Source of the DNA: Brachionus manjavacas
Lineage: Eukaryota > Rotifera > Eurotatoria > Ploima > Brachionidae
NCBI GenBank assembly: GCA_019054805.1
Contig: JAHQIY010000019.1
Coordinates: 464,001-528,000 of the forward strand
Reading direction: 5' to 3'
DNA length: 64,000 nucleotides
Notes under the pieces: generated by a model
Told to the model about the DNA's origin: nothing
Seen by the model: the letters and a program-made list of their open reading frames with translations, nothing else
The model's database searches: none
Translations under genes and position numbers: made by a program
In this document: positions 21,301 to 62,699 of the stretch, in pieces
How the letters are laid out: the number at the start of each line of letters is the position of its first letter
Position numbering within the stretch: position 1 is the stretch's first letter

Positions 21301-23386
21301 TAACTTTATTTTATTTTGATTTTTTTTTTAATCTGGAGGAGCCTTTGCTCGGTACAGAAAACAAATAAATAAATCAACAAAAAAAACGATAAAAATAAAA
21401 AAAAATTTGCTTGGGTCATTTATGACCCAGTTTTCGACGGATAAGGGTTAAAGGAAAATTGGCCTTCATCAAAAGAGTTTTAAATAATAACTTGACATTA
21501 AGCGTCCTAAGAGAAATGGAAAAAATTTCAATCAAACAAAAGACCTAAGTAAAAAATCAATAGTAAAAGAGGTGTTTGATTACTTGGAAAAAGAAGAGAT
21601 AAGCCTTGGTGACTTAATTCAGCTGGCGAAAATAAAATCAAAAAAAAAAAAAAGATATTGAACCGAATGGAATAACAGATTCAATTAAAATATGCATAGA
21701 AAATACATGAAATGATGTAAACAGAAAGGGAATCGAAGGGATAGTCCACCCGACTCTGATATTTCTTATATGTTTAGTGTGAAATTCATGTGTGAAATCA
21801 AAGTTAAGTGAGAAGATAAGATAAAACCAATATAATTGACCAATATTAACCAAAAAATATTGAAAAAGTTAATTATGTATAAAATATAATTTCAAAATAT
21901 TTTATGTAAGACAATTGAAAGCAAAATATTTTTTCTGTTATAATCCATATCTCGTGCAAGAAAGTTGAAATCATCCGAAATAAGACTTTAACTATCAGCT
22001 TATTATATTTTAACTTATTTTAATTTTTCTTGTATTTTTTCTTTACATTTTTAATTTTATTTTTTTAATCTGAAGGAACTTTAGCTCGACACAGATAAAA
22101 CAAATAAATAAATAATAATTTTTAAATTTGAATTTTTTTTAATCTTTTCACACCTAAAGGGATAAATTTTAGATGAGGTCATGCTGAATTTTTAATGAAC
22201 CTTTCGTAGTATCCATAAAAGGTACGCTAATCTTTTCTCTAGAAGGTGTTATTCCAAATGTGGACTGTCCCCCATGAACCAACAGAAAGATGCTGGTAGA
22301 GATGATCCTACTAGATCTTTGTAGGAAATGAAAAAAAAATACTTTATGAAAGTCAATCGACGTTGGTTTTATTGTTTGATTGTATTTTCAATAGAATAAC
22401 GAAAAAACGTAAAAAAAAGAAAAACTGAATATTAAGTCGGAGAATTATAAGATTAATTAACGTTTTTTTCAATAATTATTTAGGAACTATTTTCCTTTTC
22501 TCTTTTTTTACTTTGCTTCCCCTTTTAGGCGTTTAACGAAATAAATAAATAAAAATAAAAAAAATTATTAGCTATTTTTTGATGTTAACCCTTGAAGATC
22601 TTTAGCTATTTAGTAAGTAAAAAGCTGACATTTTTTCAGGTAAAAAAAATGTCCAAAATTGAATGTCCTTTTTTGAACAAAAATAAATAAATTCTTACCT
22701 CTTATTATTTCTATAAAATCGTCATAAATCAAATCATTTAACTGCTCGAGCGATTTATAGTATTTTATAATTAGTCCCTTTTTGGCCAATTTCATCTTAA
22801 GATGCTTGATTTTAGCGTCACATAGATCACTTTCGGCTTCGTGCTTTCTAAGCTCAGCTTTTCGTTTATCAATTGGCACATGCGAGTACAAGTCTTCGAA
22901 GTACTCGAATTGTCTGAAATAGAATCTGTAAAACGGATGCGCTCTAGAGTCATGCAAGGCTTGATTGATCTGGTGTTCTAGCAGGCCGTCGTTGAATGTT
23001 TGCTCGTTGATTACAGAGCTAAATCCGGTTTGGGCAGCGATTACATAATTTTTTTCCAGCCAGTTCATGTCGAGTCGAACGGAAGAATCGCTGAACAGGA
23101 GTGTGTTTGCCTGAGAGTCGGTCAAATGGGGTCCGTACTGGTGGCCCAGAAGACCAATAAAAAATGGAGAGCTTTTTCTGATAGCAGTCAGTAGGAGTCT
23201 GAGCAGACCCCCGCTGCGGACCAGGTCGTTTGACTCGGTCCAGTCTATTAGCACAGGGTCAAAGTTGACATTGAGTCGAATCAGCCGCTCTCTCAGCTTG
23301 GGGAATGTAATCTCGCGCAGAAAGTTTATTTCGTCCCTGAACTCGTCCTGATTGCAACAAACATAGGGGTTTATGTTCGAAAACAT
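6376..23386 (-). CDS. TTC41: DUF4062-like / NACHT / TPR protein (TTC41- or NPHP3-type)
   Basis: Six exons on the minus strand: 22699-23386, 16029-17492, 12881-13620, 9991-10541, 7452-7649 and 6376-7402. They sum to 4,668 nt (1,555 residues plus stop), with exon-end phases 1, 1, 0, 2, 2 all matching and donors GTAAGA, GTAAGA, GTAGGC, GTAAGT and GTAAAA. Exon 1 encodes a DUF4062-like start (N-P-Y-V-C-C then F-R-D-E, and P-F-F-I-G-L-L-G-x-Q-Y-G). Exon 2 holds the NACHT NTPase: Walker A G-P-R-G-H-G-K-T-T at about residues 341-349 and Walker B I-F-I-D-G-L at about 432-437. Exons 4-6 have degenerate TPR-like helices, and the C-terminal 250 residues are polar and probably disordered. This domain order is that of TTC41/NPHP3-like signalling scaffolds; the role is unknown and the symbol is only a best guess. 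Start: the first ATG of exon 1. An AATAAA (6331-6336) lies about 40 nt past the stop. Introns 1-4 are large and full of transposons. Confidence 0.85.
7830..8123. mobile_element. palindromic TA-flanked MITE
   Basis: A 294-bp near-perfect palindrome in an intron of the NACHT/TPR gene. Both ends read inward as CAGTACAAAAAGT and are flanked by TA dinucleotides at 7828-7829 and 8124-8125, the Tc1/mariner-type target duplication. The arms include paired copies of TACCAAGCTCTGC. It has no coding capacity, and as RNA it would fold into one long hairpin. Confidence 0.85.
8124..9990. other. intron, A+T-rich with transposon relics
   Basis: Remainder of the 2,341-nt intron between exons 4 and 5 of the NACHT/TPR gene. 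It is mostly low-complexity A+T. A stretch near 8877-9015 (GTTCGCGCG, then CACTATCT, then a CCCCCCT run) resembles the inner arm of the foldback element at 13734-15125 and is probably a relic of that family. No gene seen. Confidence 0.5.
10763..11458. mobile_element. foldback MITE, TA-flanked
   Basis: A 696-bp element in the intron between exons 3 and 4 of the NACHT/TPR gene. The ends are inverted versions of CAGTACTGCTATAATTTT (right end CAGTCCTGCTATGATTTT) flanked by TA at 10761-10762 and 11459-11460. Inner arms pair over a G-A-A-T-T-C-A-G-G/C-C-T-G-A-A-T-T-C block and over ACGTAA/TTACGT-rich sequence. It has no coding capacity. Confidence 0.75.
11459..12880. other. A+T-rich intron sequence
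   Basis: Rest of the intron between exons 3 and 4 of the NACHT/TPR gene. It is low-complexity A+T DNA in which I recognise no gene or defined element. Confidence 0.5.
13734..15125. mobile_element. large foldback element, TA-flanked, with an insertion
   Basis: A 1,392-bp inverted-repeat element in the intron between exons 2 and 3 of the NACHT/TPR gene. The ends read inward as CAGTAATGATTTGA with TA at 13732-13733 and 15126-15127. The left arm (13734 to about 14210) pairs with the right arm (about 14545-15125), including long stretches around TACGTAAATTT and CCTAGGTTTTCATATACG. The right arm is split by about 234 bp (14851-15084) absent from the left arm. The CAGTA start and TA flanks link it to the smaller elements at 7830 and 10763. 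Confidence 0.85.
14851..15084. mobile_element. unclassified insertion inside foldback element
   Basis: This segment interrupts the right arm of the surrounding foldback element and is absent from the paired left arm. AAAGT is present at both edges (14846-14850 and 15085-15089), consistent with a 5-bp target duplication. It starts GTCACGCC after a T, which resembles the start of some Ty3-type LTRs, but the right end lacks a clear CA, so a solo LTR is only a guess. Confidence 0.5.
15128..16028. other. intron remainder with LINE-tail hairpin and a short open stretch
   Basis: Intron DNA between the foldback element and exon 2 of the NACHT/TPR gene. Near 15196-15222 it has a minus-strand copy of the LINE 3' hairpin motif (GAGCTAATGCTC). 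On the plus strand about 15684-15896 is open and ends at a stop, with charged, helix-like composition and no ATG at its start; I do not recognise the product. Confidence 0.4.
17493..19266. other. first intron, A+T-rich part
   Basis: Left part of the 5.2-kb first intron of the NACHT/TPR gene. Low-complexity A+T DNA. The segment at about 18055-18260 is a diverged direct copy of 29345-29540, so it is a dispersed repeat. No gene seen. Confidence 0.45.
19380..21447 (-). mobile_element. piggyBac-like relic interrupted by a LINE
   Basis: The right edge is TTAA (21448-21451) with inward sequence CCCTTATCCGTCG and then an inner palindrome TGGGTCATAAATGACCCA. On the minus strand near 19400-19500 is an acidic stretch (E-E-N-D-D-F-E-E-E-T-E-T-S, then D-S-D-N-E-E-W) like the N-terminus of piggyBac-type transposases. 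No catalytic core was found, and a LINE occupies much of the middle. The left end was not located, so the start coordinate is the limit of recognisable sequence. Confidence 0.5.
19790..20969 (-). mobile_element. LINE reverse transcriptase, broken
   Basis: A minus-strand non-LTR reverse transcriptase in three shifted frames: 20646-20969 (fingers, with A-N-I-T-M-I-P-K-K and N-Y-R-P-I-S-I-T), 20168-20605 (palm, with F-D-I-S-K-A-F-D-K-V-W, G-V-P-Q-G-S-V-I-S-P and F-A-D-D) and 19790-20092 (thumb and C-terminal part). It lies in the first intron of the NACHT/TPR gene on the same strand. It is not functional. It is related to the copies at 24716-26545 and 48875-49672. Confidence 0.85.
21452..22698. 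other. first intron, right part, with LINE-tail copy
   Basis: Intron DNA just 3' of exon 1. A plus-strand copy of the LINE 3' hairpin tail lies at about 22068-22112 (GAACTTTAGCTC, then CAAATAAATAAATAA). Another copy sits just left of this block at about 21331-21372. No gene seen. Confidence 0.5.
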
Positions 23387-23421
23387 GTTGGGTATGGATT
23401 TAAAAAAAAAAGGAGTTATAG

Positions 23422-23905
23422 GATTTAATTTTTTTATTAGGTAAAATTGAAAATTAAAAGTAAAAACTCGGTTGTCATGGAAACCGTATTTTATGAAAAA
23501 TATTTACACTAGATTGTCGACTTTTCTAATACTGGATTATGATTAATTGAATTTGATGCCAGACTCAAAAATGAATTGTTCGCTTGCATGAATAAATTCT
23601 TTTCGAAAATAGAATTTTGTTAATTAAATTAGTTATTTTCAGAATGTAAAGCTACCTGTAAAGAGCTGTTTATTGACATAGTCGATGAGCTAAACGACTG
23701 TTCACCGCTAGAAGAGCGATGTTTGTTTACACACCAAATACTAGCAGCGAATACTTAAAATGGATTAGAGGTCTTACATGTGCGCAAGTCTAATATTAAG
23801 GTATTACTTGTGAATGTAAATAACAGGATTGCCACTGCTAGAAAAATAAACAACAAGCTTTTGTTTGAGAGCTTTGTGCTCGAGCATTTGAATAGCATCT
23901 TGAAC
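23422..23905 (-). pseudogene. partial duplicate of usherin-like 3' end
   Basis: About 480 bp closely matching 50883-51347, the 3' end of the usherin-like gene. It contains the membrane-span half of exon D, the exon E equivalent, the last exon with its stop (23509-23511), both short introns and the AATAAA signal. The last exon encodes the same 29 residues, including the K-S-T-I end, with one synonymous change. The exon E copy differs at three residues (K to N, Y to H, L to M). An 8-bp insertion before the exon D donor shifts the splice phase, and no upstream fibronectin exon is present, so it is probably not functional. Retained introns show a DNA-level duplication. It ends 122 bp upstream of the NACHT/TPR start codon, on the same strand. 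Confidence 0.85.
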
Positions 23906-24703
23906 TTTCTTTTACATGCTGGCCATTTTAGTGAGATTAACCATTAGGCCTTTTGGCCATCTTTGTCCTTGCTTTCTTTCAGCTGTTAGTACACGACCTT
24001 GCTTGTCTTTCGCTAATGTTGTTCTTTTATGTAAGGATCCAAATATGGCATCTGTGATCTTCTTGTGTAACACATGTTGGTATGTAAAACTAGCACACTG
24101 GTTTATATTGTTCTCTTATCTCGCTTTGCTTCTTTCTTCATAAGCCTACTTTTTATTTCAAATGATGATTCCAATTTTTTGCTTATTCGAATTAATTTTG
24201 CTTGAAGCATTTTCATTTCGATTTCTCCTCTTTCAGATATCAGTGTCAATGTCTCATAGAATGCACATCTCTTCTTTTTGTATTTACAAATCTCAGAACC
24301 TCTTCTGTTTTTTTGCAGTAGGCTTTCCGAATTTCTAACCAACTTATCTGTTCATCTGACTCCTCTCGGTGTTCAAGTTTTTGGAGACTCCTTTAATGCT
24401 GTATTCTGTTTTACGTTCGAGATCACCTAGGCGACCAACATCGTATTTTATACACGTTCCTACTAGAAAGCGATCACTATAAGTGTAGGCACATATAAAG
24501 ACTTTGGTGTCATTTAAGGAAGACCATCTCTTATTGAGAGCCCGTCAAGCCGAATGGTTTGCGTGTTAATTGATTTTAGAAATCAATAATTAATAGCAGG
24601 CACTTTTTAGATAACCGTAATAAAAATTTTAGCCACCTACGTGATGAATACTATCGCTCGGTTTATGAAAAATTGAGACAGTTCAAAAAGAACAATTCAA
24701 ATA
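23906..24703. other. unrecognised, partly coding-like region
   Basis: Higher G+C than nearby intergenic DNA. On the minus strand 24103-24342 reads as a 79-residue Lys/Glu-rich, coiled-coil-like frame. A second open stretch continues upstream to about 24520 in a shifted frame, with the short string F-I-C-A-Y-T-Y-S. I do not recognise either; a decayed transposon protein or a broken exon are both possible. Confidence 0.35.
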
Positions 24704-24715
24704 AATAATAATACT

Positions 24716-26545
24716 TTTAAAATATTAATACGATCAGCACATCGAGAACGAACAAAATTTACATGAGCATTAAAGCATAAACTTTCATCAAAAGTTATTC
24801 CTAAAAAAACAGGATTTTTATCATAAGGAATGGTTTTCTTAAAAATTTTAATATTTAAAGGTTGATTTTTAGAAGAGTTCCCAGAGAATATAGTATAGCT
24901 ACATTTTTCAGGGGCCATCTTCATTTTCCATTTTATAAGCCATTCTTCTATTTTTTTAAGGTAATTATTTATTGTATTGGGAATATTTCCATATTTTTTA
25001 AAGATAAAAAAAGATACAAGGTCATCCGCAAAAAGAAGAGAATAGTTCTTATTTTTTGAATTTACTTTAGGAATGTCGTTTATAAAGAGGGTAAAGAGTA
25101 ATGGGCTAATAACAGCACCCTGAGGAACACCTGTAAAAATACAACCCTGATTAGTACAAAAATTATTTACACTTACAAAAAATTTCCTATTTTGTAAAAA
25201 ATGCTTAACCCACTCAAGGAAATAGAGAGGAACTTTAAGCAGGGACATTTTATATAGGATACCGTTATGCCAGGTTTTATCAAAAGCTTGGGAGATATCA
25301 AAAAAAAGAGAACAAACCTTTTTTTTTCCTATTAAGAGATTCAGAGATTTTTTGAGTCATAAAAATAAGGTTATCTGTTGTACGTCTTCGATAACGAAAA
25401 CCAGATTGTTCGGCACAGATCAGGTTATTTTCTTCAAGGAATTTGTAAAGCCTATTCCGAGCTATTCGCTCTAAGAGTTTACCAAGACAGCTGGTGACAC
25501 TAATTGGCCGATATTTTAATGGGTCGTTTGAAACTTTCTTTTTTGGAATCATGGTTATTTTTGAGACTTTCCATTCTAAAGGTAAGGTCGCTGTTAAAAG
25601 ACAATAGTTAAAAAATTTTAAAATTTTTCGGAGAAAGGAATCTGGGAGGTTTTTTAACATTTTGTAACTTATCATGTCCGGGCCAGGCGCTGATTCATTT
25701 TTTAAGATTTTTAAGATTTTTTTAATTTCAGCAATCTCTATTTTTGGGAAAGTATTGTTAGATTGAGGATAAAGGGATATATATTGCTTACTTTGAATAA
25801 ATAGGTCAATGAATTGAGCGTGACTTCGATCTGAGATGCTTAAATCATCAGACGAGAAAGTTTTCATCAAGAGAACTTTAAAAAGATTAGCCTTTTCTTC
25901 GTCAGATTTGTATTCTTTATTTTCATAGATAATATTTTAAAAGTGTTGTCCCATAAATCATGGAAATTAAACTTTCAAACTCTAGTTACAATATACAAGT
26001 CCCTTATCGGTTCAATCATTGATTATAGTTTTTTTACTCCTATCCTAATCTCAGATACAAATTTTTCCCGTATCCAAACTATTCAAAATGTCTCAATTAA
26101 ATCAATTTATAAATTTCCTAATGACACCCCAACAAATCTCTTAGATCAATTCTTTGAAGGCATAAAACTTGACAAAATAGAAATCCGCCTTAAAAACCTC
26201 TTTACAAAATATATTAGAAAATGTGTTACATTTAAAAACAAACTTGTACTTAATCTCATTGAGGACTATGTTGGTGCATTCGTTAACAGTTCAAGAAACA
26301 AAAAACGCCACTTTGCAGTATCTGGGATGAAAACAAGCTATGGATCAATGAAAGTGGTCTTTAAATTTTTCTTTATAACAAAAAAACTGTAATCACGCAG
26401 TGCATTTTTTTTTTTTTTTTTTTAAATTCTTGTTGTTGCTTTTTTTTTAACTACTCTTAATTTACTTTCAATTCCAATGGCGGAAGGAGTTTTATTACTC
26501 AGAGCCATTTAAAAAATTTTAATAAACGTTTAAAAAAAAAAAAAA
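24716..26545. mobile_element. twin-primed LINE insertion with inverted 5' segment
   Basis: The reverse transcriptase body lies on the minus strand: 25298-25870 (fingers; N-D-P-L-K-Y-R-P-I-S-V-T) and 24697-25248 (palm; G-V-P-Q-G-A-V-I-S-P, F-A-D-D), separated by a frameshift. The rest of the same protein runs on the plus strand from about 25930 (25943-26392), followed by a poly(A) end near 26531-26545. Both segments meet at the same protein position, I-N-I-L-K-V-L, present at 24716-24735 (minus) and about 25929-25948 (plus). AATAATAATACT flanks the whole unit at 24704-24715 and 26546-26557. This is the classic structure of a 5'-inverted, 5'-truncated LINE insertion. It is not functional. Confidence 0.9.
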
Positions 26546-26659
26546 AATAATAATACTATTTTTATCTAATAGAATATTGTGTGTTGAATAATCTAAATAA
26601 TTTTTTTGTATACAGTATGTATATGTTATAAACCTTAAATAAAGAAATAATTCTTTCCG

Positions 26660-29841: not shown

Positions 29842-30671
29842 TTATTTATGATCGTAAAACTCAGTTAATATTTCTTTATCAGTAAGACCTCTACTATACA
29901 TATTTATATCATCTAAATCAAAAAATGCTTCGAACGCTCTAAAATTATATCCAATATAACAGTTGGTTCTATTTTTGTTGTTGGGTACAAAGTTTGTATG
30001 ATATGTATCTATAATTTCTCCGTTTAAAAACATAGAAAGATTTTGTGAGTTTATTCTGAAAGCTATGTGATGCCATCTGTTGATAAAATTCACAGTTGAA
30101 TAAGCAAAGCTAAATTGAAAATCATTTATAAAAAAATTAAACTTATCTCGGCTATAAAGAATGCTCATTTCATTATCAAATATTGTTGATTGTAACTTTA
30201 TTAGATAAAATTCATTAACAGGTATTTTACTTGTTCTAAACCAGGATGAAAAAGTAAAATTTTCAGCAACATAAAGATCAGGTTTTATTTGAAAATATCC
30301 TCCAAAAAACGATCTGGTCGCTGATTCAGACTTATTGAATCGGTCTGCTACAAATGCCACATCATTTTTTGCTATCATGTCAGCATCACCAACCATATCA
30401 TGTCCATTTCCATTTTCAATAGGCCAGTGATGAATAAGAGAGTTGAAATTGAATTTTTTTTGAGTGTAAATAATTAAATCACTTTCTCCATCGAGTTCTT
30501 TTATTTCTTCAATTTTATGAAGTGAACACTCATTAAGTTGCCTTCTGAGTACAACTAAATCACAATTGTCAATTAAATTGCATTTTAGAAAGCAAATTAT
30601 TTTTTGTTTGAAAATAATTTATTTTCGATTAAACTGAACTTGGGAATACTTCCTATAAATATGATTGTGAC
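29842..30671 (-). pseudogene. PAN-like + LamG-like gene fragment with one stop
   Basis: From a good acceptor (TTTTTTTGTTTCAG, exon base 30671) one frame runs to a stop at 29842. Upstream part: H-N-H-I-Y, then C-F-L-K-C-N and N-C-D-L-V-V, the cysteine pattern of a PAN/apple-like domain. Downstream part: H-H-W-P-I-E-N-G, then F-T-F-S-S-W-F-R, W-H-H-I-A-F-R and L-F-L-N/M-F-L-N-G-E-like strands of a LamG/concanavalin-like fold, ending Y-S-R-G-L-T-D-K-E-I. Such proteins are secreted or surface-bound in animals. A TAA at 30619-30621 interrupts the frame between the two parts, and no first exon with a signal peptide was found. It is therefore probably a pseudogene, although an unrecognised downstream start could yield a LamG-only product. 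Confidence 0.65.
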
Positions 30672-48201: not shown

Positions 48202-48205
48202 TTAA

Positions 48206-48874
48206 ACGTCAATTAAAAAAAGATTAAATCGTCATTTATTTATATTTATTAGTCAACATAAAAATTAGTCAATTGAATGTATGAATCGTAAATTGAAAGT
48301 AATAGTTGTCATTTTTAGTAATTAGTTATCACATAATAAAATTAAATGTTATAAAGTAAAGAGTCATAACAAAAATTTTAATCATAATAAAATTAAGAAA
48401 ATATTTTCAATAATTTCATTACTAATGATTTTAATTCTTTTTTTGGTCGTTCTACTCCTCTTTATTTTCCTAAAGGTATGTCGCAAGCTTCAGCAGGAAA
48501 GGCCTCGAATAATCCTTGGCTTTAATCAACACCAATTATATGCTTCCACATTATTAAATGGGATAACAGCGTTATTGTAGGAATTTGCTGCTAGGGTAGT
48601 CTCATTATTACCTTCTTCTATCTCAGTTTCAATTAAAGTGTTCCTTAAGTTGTCTTGAGCTTCGATTTATTCGTCGAAAGCCATTAATATCTTCATAACC
48701 CCCCGATTCCCCATAAAATTATTTATTGGGGTCGTAAGATTCGAGCCATGATTCATTGAAATAAGTTACCATTTTGACTATGACAATTAATACATTTAAG
48801 TTACATTAATTTTATTGACGTTTAATCAAAATAAATGACGCTTTAATATGCGGCCTTTATTTAGTTGTTAACTG
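48206..48874. other. intergenic DNA with weak coding relics
   Basis: A+T-rich first half. About 48470-48780 is G+C-richer with short open stretches but no recognisable domain; a decayed transposon is likely. Confidence 0.35.
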
Positions 48875-50882: not shown

Positions 50883-50969
50883 AGATTTTAATTTTTTATT
50901 AGTTAAATTGAAAATTAAAAGTAAAAACTCGGTTGTCATGGAAACCGTATTTTATGAAAAATATTTACA

Positions 50970-53900
50970 CTAGATTGTCGACTTTTCTAATACTGGATTA
51001 TGATTAATTGAATTGGATGCCAGACTCAAAAATGAATTGTTCGCTTGCATGAATAAATTCTTTTCGAAAATAGAATTTTGTTAATTAAATTAATTGTTTT
51101 CAAAATGTTAAAATACCTGTAAAGAGCTGTTTATTGACAGAGTCGATGAGCTAAACGACTGTTCACCACTAGAAGAGCGATATTTCTTTACACACCAAAT
51201 ACTAGCTGCGAATACTTTTGAATAATGGATTAGGGATCTTACATGTCTAATATTAAGCTATTACTTGTGAATGAAAATAACAGGATTGCCACTGCTAGAA
51301 CAATAAACAAAAAGCTTTTGTTTGAGAGCTTTGTGCTCGAGCATGTGAATGGGATCGTTACAGGCTGGGCCAAATAGATGTTCTTGTTCAAAGTGGATTT
51401 GAGACGAATTTGAACACTGTTGCTTTCATTCAACAAACGGTTACAAGCATCCATCGAGAGTGTTTGTGTGAACTGTCGTGATTGGCCTGTGTATAACGGC
51501 TTATCGTTCACACTCAACTCGAAGGTTTGGGCTTTCAAGCCATAAGCATTTGGTTCAAAGTCTTTCCAGTTGATGTCAAGTACAATTGATTCATTTTCCA
51601 ATTTTTGTATGTTCACTAGTGGAAAATCGCTCTTCAGAGATTCTAAACATTAATTAAACATTAGTGACAATTCATATTAATTTTTACATATCTAAATCAA
51701 TAAATTTTTCGAGATTGATTTTGAATGATTTTTTCACTTTCAATCATCTCTATGATACTTGAAAAAACTAATTGTAGTCAAAAAATTAAGATTTTGAATA
51801 AAAAGTGGGTGGAATAATAATTAAAAGTACAAATGGTTCGAGACACCTATTATAAATAAGGCCAAAGACAACGACAACCCTTAACTTCTGTAAAGATGCA
51901 ATTTCAAGACTAAAAAAGGAAAAAATAAAATTTTAATAAATTTTAACCTTGAAGTTATTTTTAGAAAAGTTAATAAGAAAAACTCTAATAACTTTGTAAT
52001 TTTTGTATATATAAAAATTTATTATATATTTTTAAATAATAAGAAAACTAAACACTTTAAAATAAAATCTTAGAAATTAAATTATATTTTAATAAGATAT
52101 TGAAAAGTATCTTTAGTTCAATTTAATAGGTGATTGAAAAGTCATCTATCAGGTTACTGAAAAGTATCCTATTATTAAAAGTTCCTATTGCTTCCTTCTT
52201 TGAGGCCCTAGGGGCTAGGCGAAAGATTTGGTCATTAGCTGACCAACTCAAGCACAGTCTAGTTTTTCCGTATATTGAAAAGTATACAAAAAAGGCATTG
52301 AGAAGTCTCTTTCGATCGTACATCTGTCAAGCAAATCAATAACCGAAGTTCGATCAAAAACCATTCAACCGTGACGAATAAGAAACCCACGCGAAGCATT
52401 ACACGTTCTTAAAAGAACATTTTTAAGTAGAGAAGAAACTCTTTGGTTGAAGCTTTATATGTCTTTATATGTTAATATGTCTTTGGTTAGACCTCACCTC
52501 GACTATGCAGTTCAAGTTTGGAATCCGAGCAAAAAAGGTGACGTAAAAGCGTTGGAAAAAGTACAAGGGCGTGCAACGAAAATTCCTTGGTCACTAAGAA
52601 AAATTTCATACGAGGAAAGGCTTGCCAGATTGGGTTTAACAAAATTTAGTGAGAGAAGGGTGAGAGGTGATTTGATTGAGGTTTTTAAAGTGATTAGCGG
52701 TCATGAAAAAGTGTCGTTTACCAGAGAACTTCTGGATCCTGTTGGCAGGAATGGACCGATAATAATGAGGTTAAGAGGAAACAGCGCAAAAGTTCAAAGA
52801 GAAAGTTTTCCAGCACAAAAAAGAAATGATTTTTCTGCCGCAGTGAGTGCTAGACACGTTTTTTTCTCGAACAGAGTAGCTCCGCACTGGAATAGACTTC
52901 CTGAGAAGGTGGTTAAGGCTAAGACAGTTAATGGATTCAAAGAAGCATTAGATAGGTTTAACAGAATTGGCTGTTAAAGCTTAATACGCCTTTAAGCGGT
53001 GATGAGCTCAGATTTCTTACTTGTTAGGATTTCGCAGCAAGAACTACTACTACTACTACTAGTATTGAATTTACATCTGTTGTTAATAACCCTGTCCAAG
53101 TAGCAAATAATGATACATTTTATGATGTTGAAGAAATTGATCTGAACCAACACAGAAAAAGATTTGGCAAAAATAAACAACATTTCGAGTTTTGCATGCT
53201 TGAAGATTTTGAAACAGCTGATAAAATATGCAAAGGTATTTTCGATGAGCAGAATTGGAGAAAAGAAAAGATAGTTTTTGAAGAAAAAAGACGATATTCA
53301 TTTCATTCTCAAGCTAGTGAAGGTAATTGTCCGGTTCAAAATGATAGAATTGTATTGTTGTATTTTTATTGCATTTTATGAGCTTTTTCTAATCGTTCCA
53401 AAAAAAAATATTTTTTTAAAATGGAAAACTATATAAATATCTTTATATTTTCTAAAAATGAACTATATCTTAATAATTTTTTGAATAAGAACTTAGGTGC
53501 ATATTTTGCTAGTCTCTGATCATGATCAACATTTAGTAACAATAACAATAGCCTTTTTTTTTATTAAAACTTCCAAGGCTCTTAAATTTTTATTTTATGA
53601 TCCATCCTGAAAAAAAAAATTCCTACTTTCTTGAGGCTGTGCTTCAATTATCAGACTCTTTCTGTCAATAATCAATTTATTATCTTGTTCATCAATTGCT
53701 AGTAGTTCAAATTCATATGTTGCTGTGGGCTTAGCTGTGCGGAATTCGAATCCATTCTCAATGCCATCATACACTACAATGCTTCCCAAATTTACACATC
53801 TCAATTGGAACCTTAACGACCAAATAGTTAAAATTTTATGTCTTTAGACTTGGTACTTTTTACCTGATTGAGCGTGTAGAGACTTTTTTAAAATTCCACT

Positions 53901-60447: not shown

Positions 60448-62699
60448 CTTGGTGCAAAAAATATTTAAAAAAAAGTCTTAATTTATTATTTATGTTGGGT
60501 CAGCTTCAAGAATTAAATCAGATTTGTTTAAATGTTCAAGTACTACAGGTCAAACAAATTATTTTCGTGCCATATTATTTAGTATTGGCTCTCAATATAT
60601 TTACATATTAAATTTAAGTTTAAGTCCCATAGAATATAATTTGAAATATAATTTGTTTATTAATAAGGGTAAAAACAATTGAATGTCTATTTTACAATTA
60701 AGCTACAGATTAAGCTTATTGAAAACATAAAAATGGCTTAGATTATTTAGAATACAAAATTCGTTCAAGTAAAAATTATACTAAAAATTTTATGGTGTAA
60801 TTTTTTGTGTTTGAATTGCAAATGCTAAATATTAGATAAGTGTTATAACCCAAATTGGATGTCATATTAAATTTGAGTTATTTTAAACAGTTACAATATT
60901 ATTTTCTTCAGTTACATTAGCTTTTATTTTCTAGTCATAATTTTTCATATATAAATGCTTGTTTTTCACTTATGAGTTTCAGATTCCATTTTCAAAAAAT
61001 AAAAGTTTATAATTTAAATTCTACTTTGTTTCTCTTATTTGGTCTCTCAACTCAACCAAGGATAAGTCATCCAATAGCCCCCGTGTACAGACTTATCAAA
61101 CAATTAATTATATAACTAAACACGGTTATAACATAAGACTCTGCAAAAACTCTGTAATTAAATTGCGCAGTTGCATGAAATACTTATTAATGACGTGCAT
61201 TTTCTTGCAAAATTGCAGAGTTTTTGCTGAGCCTTGTCTAATATTTAACATGTTTTTTGCATTAGTTAGCATTTTGCAGAGATATTTAATCAAATACCAT
61301 TCAAAAGTTGAAAAAAATATAATTTTTGATCTAATTTTTTGATATTTTCAAGTATTTTTTCATTTTAAAATAAAAAAAATAATTTTATTTTATTAACATT
61401 TTCATATTGTAAAGATTTTCTCTTTTGAAATTAGACTTTTTGGTGAAATAGAACAAGTTTAATTTTTATTTGAAAAATTGAAAAAGAAAATATGGAAAAT
61501 TCTTTTATAAAAATTTAACTTTAATTAAGAAATATAACCATCGAGTTGAATGATTGATAATTAAATCATTGATGAATTTTTTAATGAAACAAATGAATTT
61601 TCAAAATTTCAAAAATCTTAAGTCTAATAACTTAAACAATGAGCTATAGAGAATCTAATTAGTCAAAATTTTGTTTTGTATTGAAAGTGTAATAAACGTG
61701 GCTTTTATCCTTATGTGCATATACGAGTATTAATTTAAAAACTCCCGCTATGCTGTGGTTGAGAGACCAAACAATAAAAGAAACAACTTTTTAAGGATAA
61801 ATCTTTATTTGTAATAATTTGGAAACTGAAACGTGTAAGTGAAAAACAAGCATTTATTTAAGAAAAACTATGACTAAAAAATAATAACTACTGTAACTGT
61901 TGAAAATAATATTGTAATTGTTTATAACTCAAATTTTACATGACATTAAATTTAGGTTATAACAAAAGCCTCGAGTCTGCTTTATGTTCTTACACAAAGT
62001 CAAAAATTTAAAGCCAGTTGAAAGCAAAATTTAGAATAAAATGAATTCTTTTTGATTTAAATTTGGAATAAGGTAAAAAAAAACAATTTTTTTTTAAATA
62101 AGAAAATAAAATATTGAAAATTCATTAAAAAAAAATGATTTAATTATCAATCATTCAACTCGATGGTTATATTTCTTAATTAAAGTTAAATTTTTATAAA
62201 AGAATTTTCCATATTTTCTTTTTCAATTTTTCAAATAAAAATTAAACTTGTTCTATTTCACCAAAAAGTCTAATTTCAAATATGAAAATTTTTACAATAT
62301 GAAAATGTTAATAAAATAAAATTATTTTTTTTATTTTAAAATGAAAAAATACTTGAAAATATCAAAAAATTAGATCAAAAATTATATTTTTTCAACTTTT
62401 GAATGGTATTTGATTAAATATCTCTGCAAAATAACTAATGCAAAAAACATGTTAAATATTAGGACATGTTAAATAATATATAGACAAGGCTCAGCAAAAA
62501 CTCTGTAATTAAATTGCGCAGTTGCATGAAATACTTATTAATGAGGTGCCTTTTCTGCAAAATTGCAAAGTTTTTGCAGACCCTTGTCTAATATTTAACA
62601 TGTTTTTTGCATTAGTTATTTTGCAGAGATATTTAATCAAATACCATTCAAAAGTTGAAAAAAATATACTTTTTGATCTGATTTTTTTGATCCTAAACT
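60448..62699. repeat. interleaved long inverted repeats upstream of visible usherin exons
   Basis: Probably intron of the usherin-like gene. One pair of arms is about 60840-61065 and 61755-61966, with outer ends GTTATAACC and GGTTATAAC. A second set shares sequence around AATACCATTCAAAAGTTG: copy at 61134-61575, inverted copy at 62135-62475, and direct partial copy at 62480-62695. The two sets interleave, so one inserted into or recombined with the other. No coding sequence seen. Confidence 0.7.

Follow-up and report, generated by a model that had tools for sequence, protein, structure and literature searches.

A partial, intron-retaining copy of the 3′ end of an usherin-like gene upstream of a NACHT gene in Brachionus manjavacas

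DNA repair is well known to give rise to partial gene duplicates. For templated insertions that arise from break repair of the MMBIR type, excerpts of one report (PMC8421209) describe small insertions, detected up to read length, with microhomology at most junctions. For human usherin (USH2A), the section of another report that lists its domains includes laminin N, laminin EGF and FN3 repeats (PMC7317166). The titles and opening lines of abstracts in the literature on usherin in rotifers say nothing about a copy of the kind presented here, which is very probably an ordinary partial, unprocessed duplicate (a pseudogene) of the last three exons of an usherin-like gene. Such a duplicate would have been produced by templated insertion during break repair, would now be drifting, and probably yields no protein.

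The window analysed is a stretch of 64,000 nucleotides that corresponds to positions 464001-528000 of contig C19. Within it, the minus strand at 23422-23899 matches 50884-51356 in the same orientation, with 92.1% identity over 482 alignment columns (blastn, E printed as 0.0), and the two places lie about 27 kb apart on the same contig. The duplication is real. The initial annotation had recognized this match of about 480 bp, and its outer ends are corrected here to approximately 23899 (not 23905) and 51356 (not 51347). In a global alignment, copy and parent differ by 24 substitutions, two insertions (8 bp and 1 bp) and a 4-bp deletion that the program splits into two gaps, with gaps at the ends in addition.

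When the whole assembly (114 Mb in 61 contigs) was searched with 23422-23905, skipping simple repeats and very common words, the two candidates gave two matches, which are the copy and its parent. A mobile element or captured gene fragment was therefore ruled out, as the many copies expected of a mobile element were not found. Among 103 kb examined with the low-complexity filter on, 16 self-match pairs reach E 1e-20 or better, and six of these exceed 90% identity: four are local (within about 1.5 kb), one is the copy with its parent, and one is another dispersed pair. The latter joins window positions 48202-48861 with C19 532094-532789 and is a repeat with inverted ends of about 40 bp, since in many relatives the query segment 609-648 is found inverted at the other end. 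This repeat occupies at least 40 places including itself (40 of 101 candidates scored), and the repeat copy at C19 532094-532789 is located inside the region that the usherin-like gene spans.

The parent gene is read on the minus strand, where five exons (A to E), separated by introns of 52, 1984, 59 and 57 bp, share a single reading frame once joined. The following features belong to its 3′ part, and each exon is placed by a frame-consistent join.

ends at 53864, minus strand: exon A
53811-53627, minus strand: exon B
51265-51642, minus strand: exon C, with the end of the ectodomain and the membrane span
51117-51205, minus strand: exon D
50970-51059, minus strand: last exon E, which ends STI
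50895-50900, minus strand: AATAAA signal

Translation of the joined exons from 55644 yields 840 residues and a single, terminal stop, whereas the other two frames carry 70 and 69 stops. The C-terminus has a hydrophobic span, FLFIVLAVAILLFSF, followed by a tail that ends S-T-I in the sequence, a putative PDZ-binding motif. Upstream frames match fn3, laminin EGF (nine stretches) and laminin N in Pfam, and thus the gene carries the laminin N domain, laminin EGF repeats and FN3 repeats that are listed for usherin. Usherin also has an N-terminal laminin-G-like domain and two laminin G domains; no Pfam match to these (E 0.001-0.01) was found among the nine long open frames given, which cover part of the gene. 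Nor did exon C match any Pfam family with confidence. As a whole, the gene appears to be about 39 kb long (C19 514970-554368), reaching beyond the window, with laminin N and laminin EGF at its far end.

No paralogue of exon C that could be used as an outgroup was found in the genome, where the two matches are the parent and the copy, and the tail has no hits among solved structures up to E 10. A further search for tail relatives returned seven matches from four candidates, six of them within parent and copy. The seventh (C7, E 0.18) was rejected as a tail relative, as its six translations show no convincing frame.

The source of the copy is the last three exons of this gene, which encode the membrane span, the cytoplasmic tail and the C-terminus STI, together with its 3′ end. 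The copied region and its surroundings are composed of the following features.

22610-23386, minus strand: initial open frame of the NACHT/TPR gene, with its ATG at 23386-23384
23422-23899, minus strand: partial copy of the 3′ end of the usherin-like gene, 92.1% identical to 50884-51356, found at two places in the genome
23433-23438, minus strand: copied AATAAA poly(A) signal, 46 bp from the NACHT ATG
23509-23598, minus strand: copy of last exon E, 29 codons and a stop, C-terminus STI, one silent change
23599-23655, minus strand: copy of intron 2, 57 bp, with substitutions in its 5′ part and none in its 3′ part
23656-23744, minus strand: copy of exon D (cytoplasmic tail), three replacement changes and one silent change
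23745-23807, minus strand: remnant of intron 1, 63 bp versus 59 bp in the parent
23808-23898, minus strand: remnant of exon C (membrane span), with an in-frame ATG by chance at 23898-23896 in the frayed edge
23900-23956, no strand assigned: filler of 57 bp with no other genome match found
23957-24537, minus strand: old LINE-like pol fragment, broken at 23957

Only part of the gene is copied, beginning inside exon C and ending about 11 nucleotides past AATAAA. As the initial annotation had stated, introns and the poly(A) signal are included, and the last exon preserves all 29 residues with one silent change. Both introns are there, the stop of the last exon is kept too, and the silent change replaces TCC by TCA.

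The 8-bp insertion (23782-23789) and the 4-bp deletion are both within intron 1 of the copy. The insertion had been noted before and is genuine, but the earlier proposal that it disrupts the splice phase of exon D does not hold, because the frame-consistent exon model of the parent places it inside the intron, where by itself it changes no splice phase. From the sequence, the damaging change is instead the conversion of the exon D acceptor from CAG in the parent to CTG in the copy, at 23746. If intron 1 were retained, a stop would follow soon after the membrane span, and use of the next downstream AG leads to an early stop as well. However, an AG located nine bases upstream of the altered acceptor keeps the frame, giving a 54-bp intron and three extra residues, and with this alternative acceptor the frame has no premature stop. 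Splicing of the copy could therefore survive. The missing gene start and the lost CAG acceptor are candidate disabling lesions, but with the in-frame AG close by they do not prove that the damaged copy is incapable of producing the tail. In all likelihood no protein is made from it.

Pairwise comparison of copy and parent over 85 codons, starting from TGC and with no outgroup to assign changes to one or the other, reveals six replacement and two silent changes. This count leaves out three codons at the 5′ edge that also differ, each by a replacement. The span and exon D carry six replacement changes and one silent change, and exon E carries none and one. Silent and replacement rates, whose comparison had been proposed at the outset, are about equal, with dN at 0.031 (6 changes in 199.5 sites) and dS at 0.037 (2 changes in 55.5 sites), although these values derive from only eight changes. 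The coding changes thus look neutral and give no sign of constraint, with counts too few to establish neutrality. Of the two readings originally offered, a dead duplicate is the better supported.

The substitutions are unevenly distributed. Over parent positions 50904-51345 (442 positions, four of them deleted in the copy, with five edge mismatches left out) there are 19 substitutions, of which 18 fall in the 253 positions on the 5′ side versus one in the 189 positions on the 3′ side (Fisher's p 0.0005, with the cut chosen after the data were seen). When the substitutions were placed at random 20,000 times, a fraction of 0.005 of the placements had a stretch of at least 189 positions with no more than one substitution, and a fraction of 0.07 had one of at least 111 positions with none. 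The low-divergence block of 189 bp comprises exon E flanked by some of intron 2 and by 3′ untranslated sequence. Because it holds noncoding DNA as well, selection on the protein alone does not explain its uniformity, which points less to a selected tail than to local homogenization, for example by gene conversion. Gene conversion would be the simplest reading of this block. Given this contrast, the description of the duplicate as recent is right only in part. The locus offers a clean, small case of a two-copy duplication with uneven divergence, and it warns against reading selection into a perfectly preserved exon of a copy if the adjoining noncoding DNA is equally preserved.

On the side of the copy that faces the NACHT gene, 35 bp separate the copy edge from the first ATG. 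The NACHT domain is matched in a later frame (Pfam, E 5e-6), whereas two further matches are weak and do not reach the Pfam cut-off, one to TPR (E 5e-4) and one to DUF4062 in the first frame (E 0.11). No paralogue of the first frame was found in the genome, where the one match is the frame itself. As the copied AATAAA is only 46 bp from the ATG, the NACHT transcript probably begins downstream of this signal.

The opposite side consists of the filler and then the broken LINE-like fragment. A 65-base query (23896-23960) searched against the genome at E up to 10 found only itself, at a setting where short or diverged sources of the filler could escape. The LINE-like fragment has relatives at no fewer than 39 other places (40 scored of 102 candidates). 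Among 20 relatives fetched, 15 align from within two bases of 23957 and the remaining five first align further in; by eye, all 15 run past 23957 with a common stretch that is absent from the window. Two related loci read frames that are probably of LINE type, judging by their motifs. Transduction by a neighboring LINE was considered and rejected, as the adjoining repeat breaks off at 23957, a point past which 15 of the 20 relatives continue, and a young LINE starts only at 24710. The young LINE copy (24710-26551) is approximately 93-99% identical to its closest relatives, and its piece at 24710-25932 is inverted relative to the piece at 25930-26551, as after twin priming. Several of its relatives join these pieces in the opposite way.

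The window has additional features. An open frame on the minus strand at 29842-30618, between the two copies, encodes a laminin-G-like domain (PF13385, E 2.6e-14). The minus strand at 1851-1970 matches the Rfam family RAGATH-11 with 108 bits (gathering threshold 79.4). All 47 scored places in the genome exceed the cut-off, out of 5232 first-look candidates, compared with none in 14 control genomes, and RAGATH-11-like sequences are possibly a very abundant RNA-like repeat in B. manjavacas. A long inverted repeat with 259-nucleotide arms that are 98% complementary is located at 61312-62392, with further repeats at 61135-62687.

Several findings bear on how the copy originated. Both short introns are kept (two of two), as is characteristic of a partial unprocessed pseudogene. 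Neither intron removal nor a target-site duplication, the marks of a processed (retro) pseudogene, is observed: no exact 7- to 12-mer is common to 23380-23445 and 23885-23965, a search that an eroded duplication would escape. A DNA-level copy fits these two observations best, and the earlier statement that DNA was copied rather than RNA is the better-supported reading. Together with the existence of just two copies, the filler and the broken neighboring element, they favor templated insertion at the DNA level, probably during break repair. Clear microhomology at both junctions was not seen: the left edge is rich in A and T, and at the right edge the shared sequence amounts to a GGCCAGC-like run interrupted by a gap.

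Under this model, a double-strand break would have occurred in or beside the old LINE fragment upstream of the NACHT gene and been filled by synthesis for which the usherin-like gene, at a distance of 27 kb, lent its 3′ end as template. The repair would have left 478 bp of copied DNA and 57 bp of unmatched filler. The copy would then have drifted without detectable selection, with damage to the exon D acceptor, and later gene conversion with the parent would most simply account for the near-identical block around the last exon.

The main competing origin is reverse transcription of an unspliced usherin-like transcript by a LINE enzyme, with truncation at the 5′ end. The copy stops about 11 nucleotides past AATAAA, as one made from RNA also would, its 5′ edge is a truncation inside an exon, and LINEs are present nearby. 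However, both introns are retained, the 3′ edge has no poly(A) tract (a nearby tract is T on the sense strand of the copy), and no exact target-site duplication of at least 7 bp is seen, which makes this origin unlikely. That the copy is an artefact of assembly, such as a mis-joined haplotype, is exceedingly improbable because copy and parent, with about 5% divergence in addition to indels, are set in unrelated flanking sequence 27 kb apart within one 1.36-Mb contig; no point in support of an artefact was found in the assembled sequence.

Functional roles for the copy can also be envisioned. A young micro-gene might use an upstream promoter, the ATG at 23898 and the shifted AG to encode a peptide of about 92 residues that is anchored in the membrane, carries the PDZ-type end of the parent and could thereby vie with it for PDZ scaffolds. 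The frame is indeed open across all three exons with the 54-bp intron, two of the four acceptors in the last five exons of the parent also end AAG, and the protein sequence of the last exon is unchanged. Nevertheless, dN is about equal to dS, the ATG lies within the frayed edge, and an open frame at such divergence is, in our judgment rather than by computation, unsurprising, and therefore a micro-gene is very unlikely. Highly improbable is an elaboration wherein the shifted acceptor rescues the intron and the block next to the NACHT ATG owes its uniformity to a second role, as the promoter of that gene or as a terminator before it. Alternatively, a same-strand gene located upstream might splice into the last exon of the copy and gain the STI end. 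The exon E acceptor is intact and the laminin-G-like frame at 29842-30618 is positioned upstream on the same strand, but that frame ends in its own stop and at least two LINE-derived pieces intervene. Moreover, exon C has no acceptor, as the copy starts inside the parent exon and its 5′ acceptor was not copied, and the exon D acceptor is lost. The original suggestion of a donor of a membrane-span and PDZ tail exon is thereby weakened, since the only exon with an intact acceptor is the last, which has no membrane span, and we regard splicing of this kind as extremely unlikely.

As it stands, a partial duplicate probably inserted during break repair matters little. Compared with the MMBIR-type insertions in the excerpts of PMC8421209, its length of 478 bp, its template 27 kb away and the lack of demonstrated junction microhomology are points of difference. 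The copy is nonetheless like templated insertions of this type, and like partial unprocessed pseudogenes, in being a short tract with extra sequence at the junction, no target-site duplication and retained introns. Its parent resembles usherin, as the domains are listed in the pertinent section of PMC7317166, in carrying laminin-N, laminin-EGF and FN3 domains and then a hydrophobic span and a PDZ-type C-terminus, whereas the copy differs from usherin in consisting of the span and tail only.
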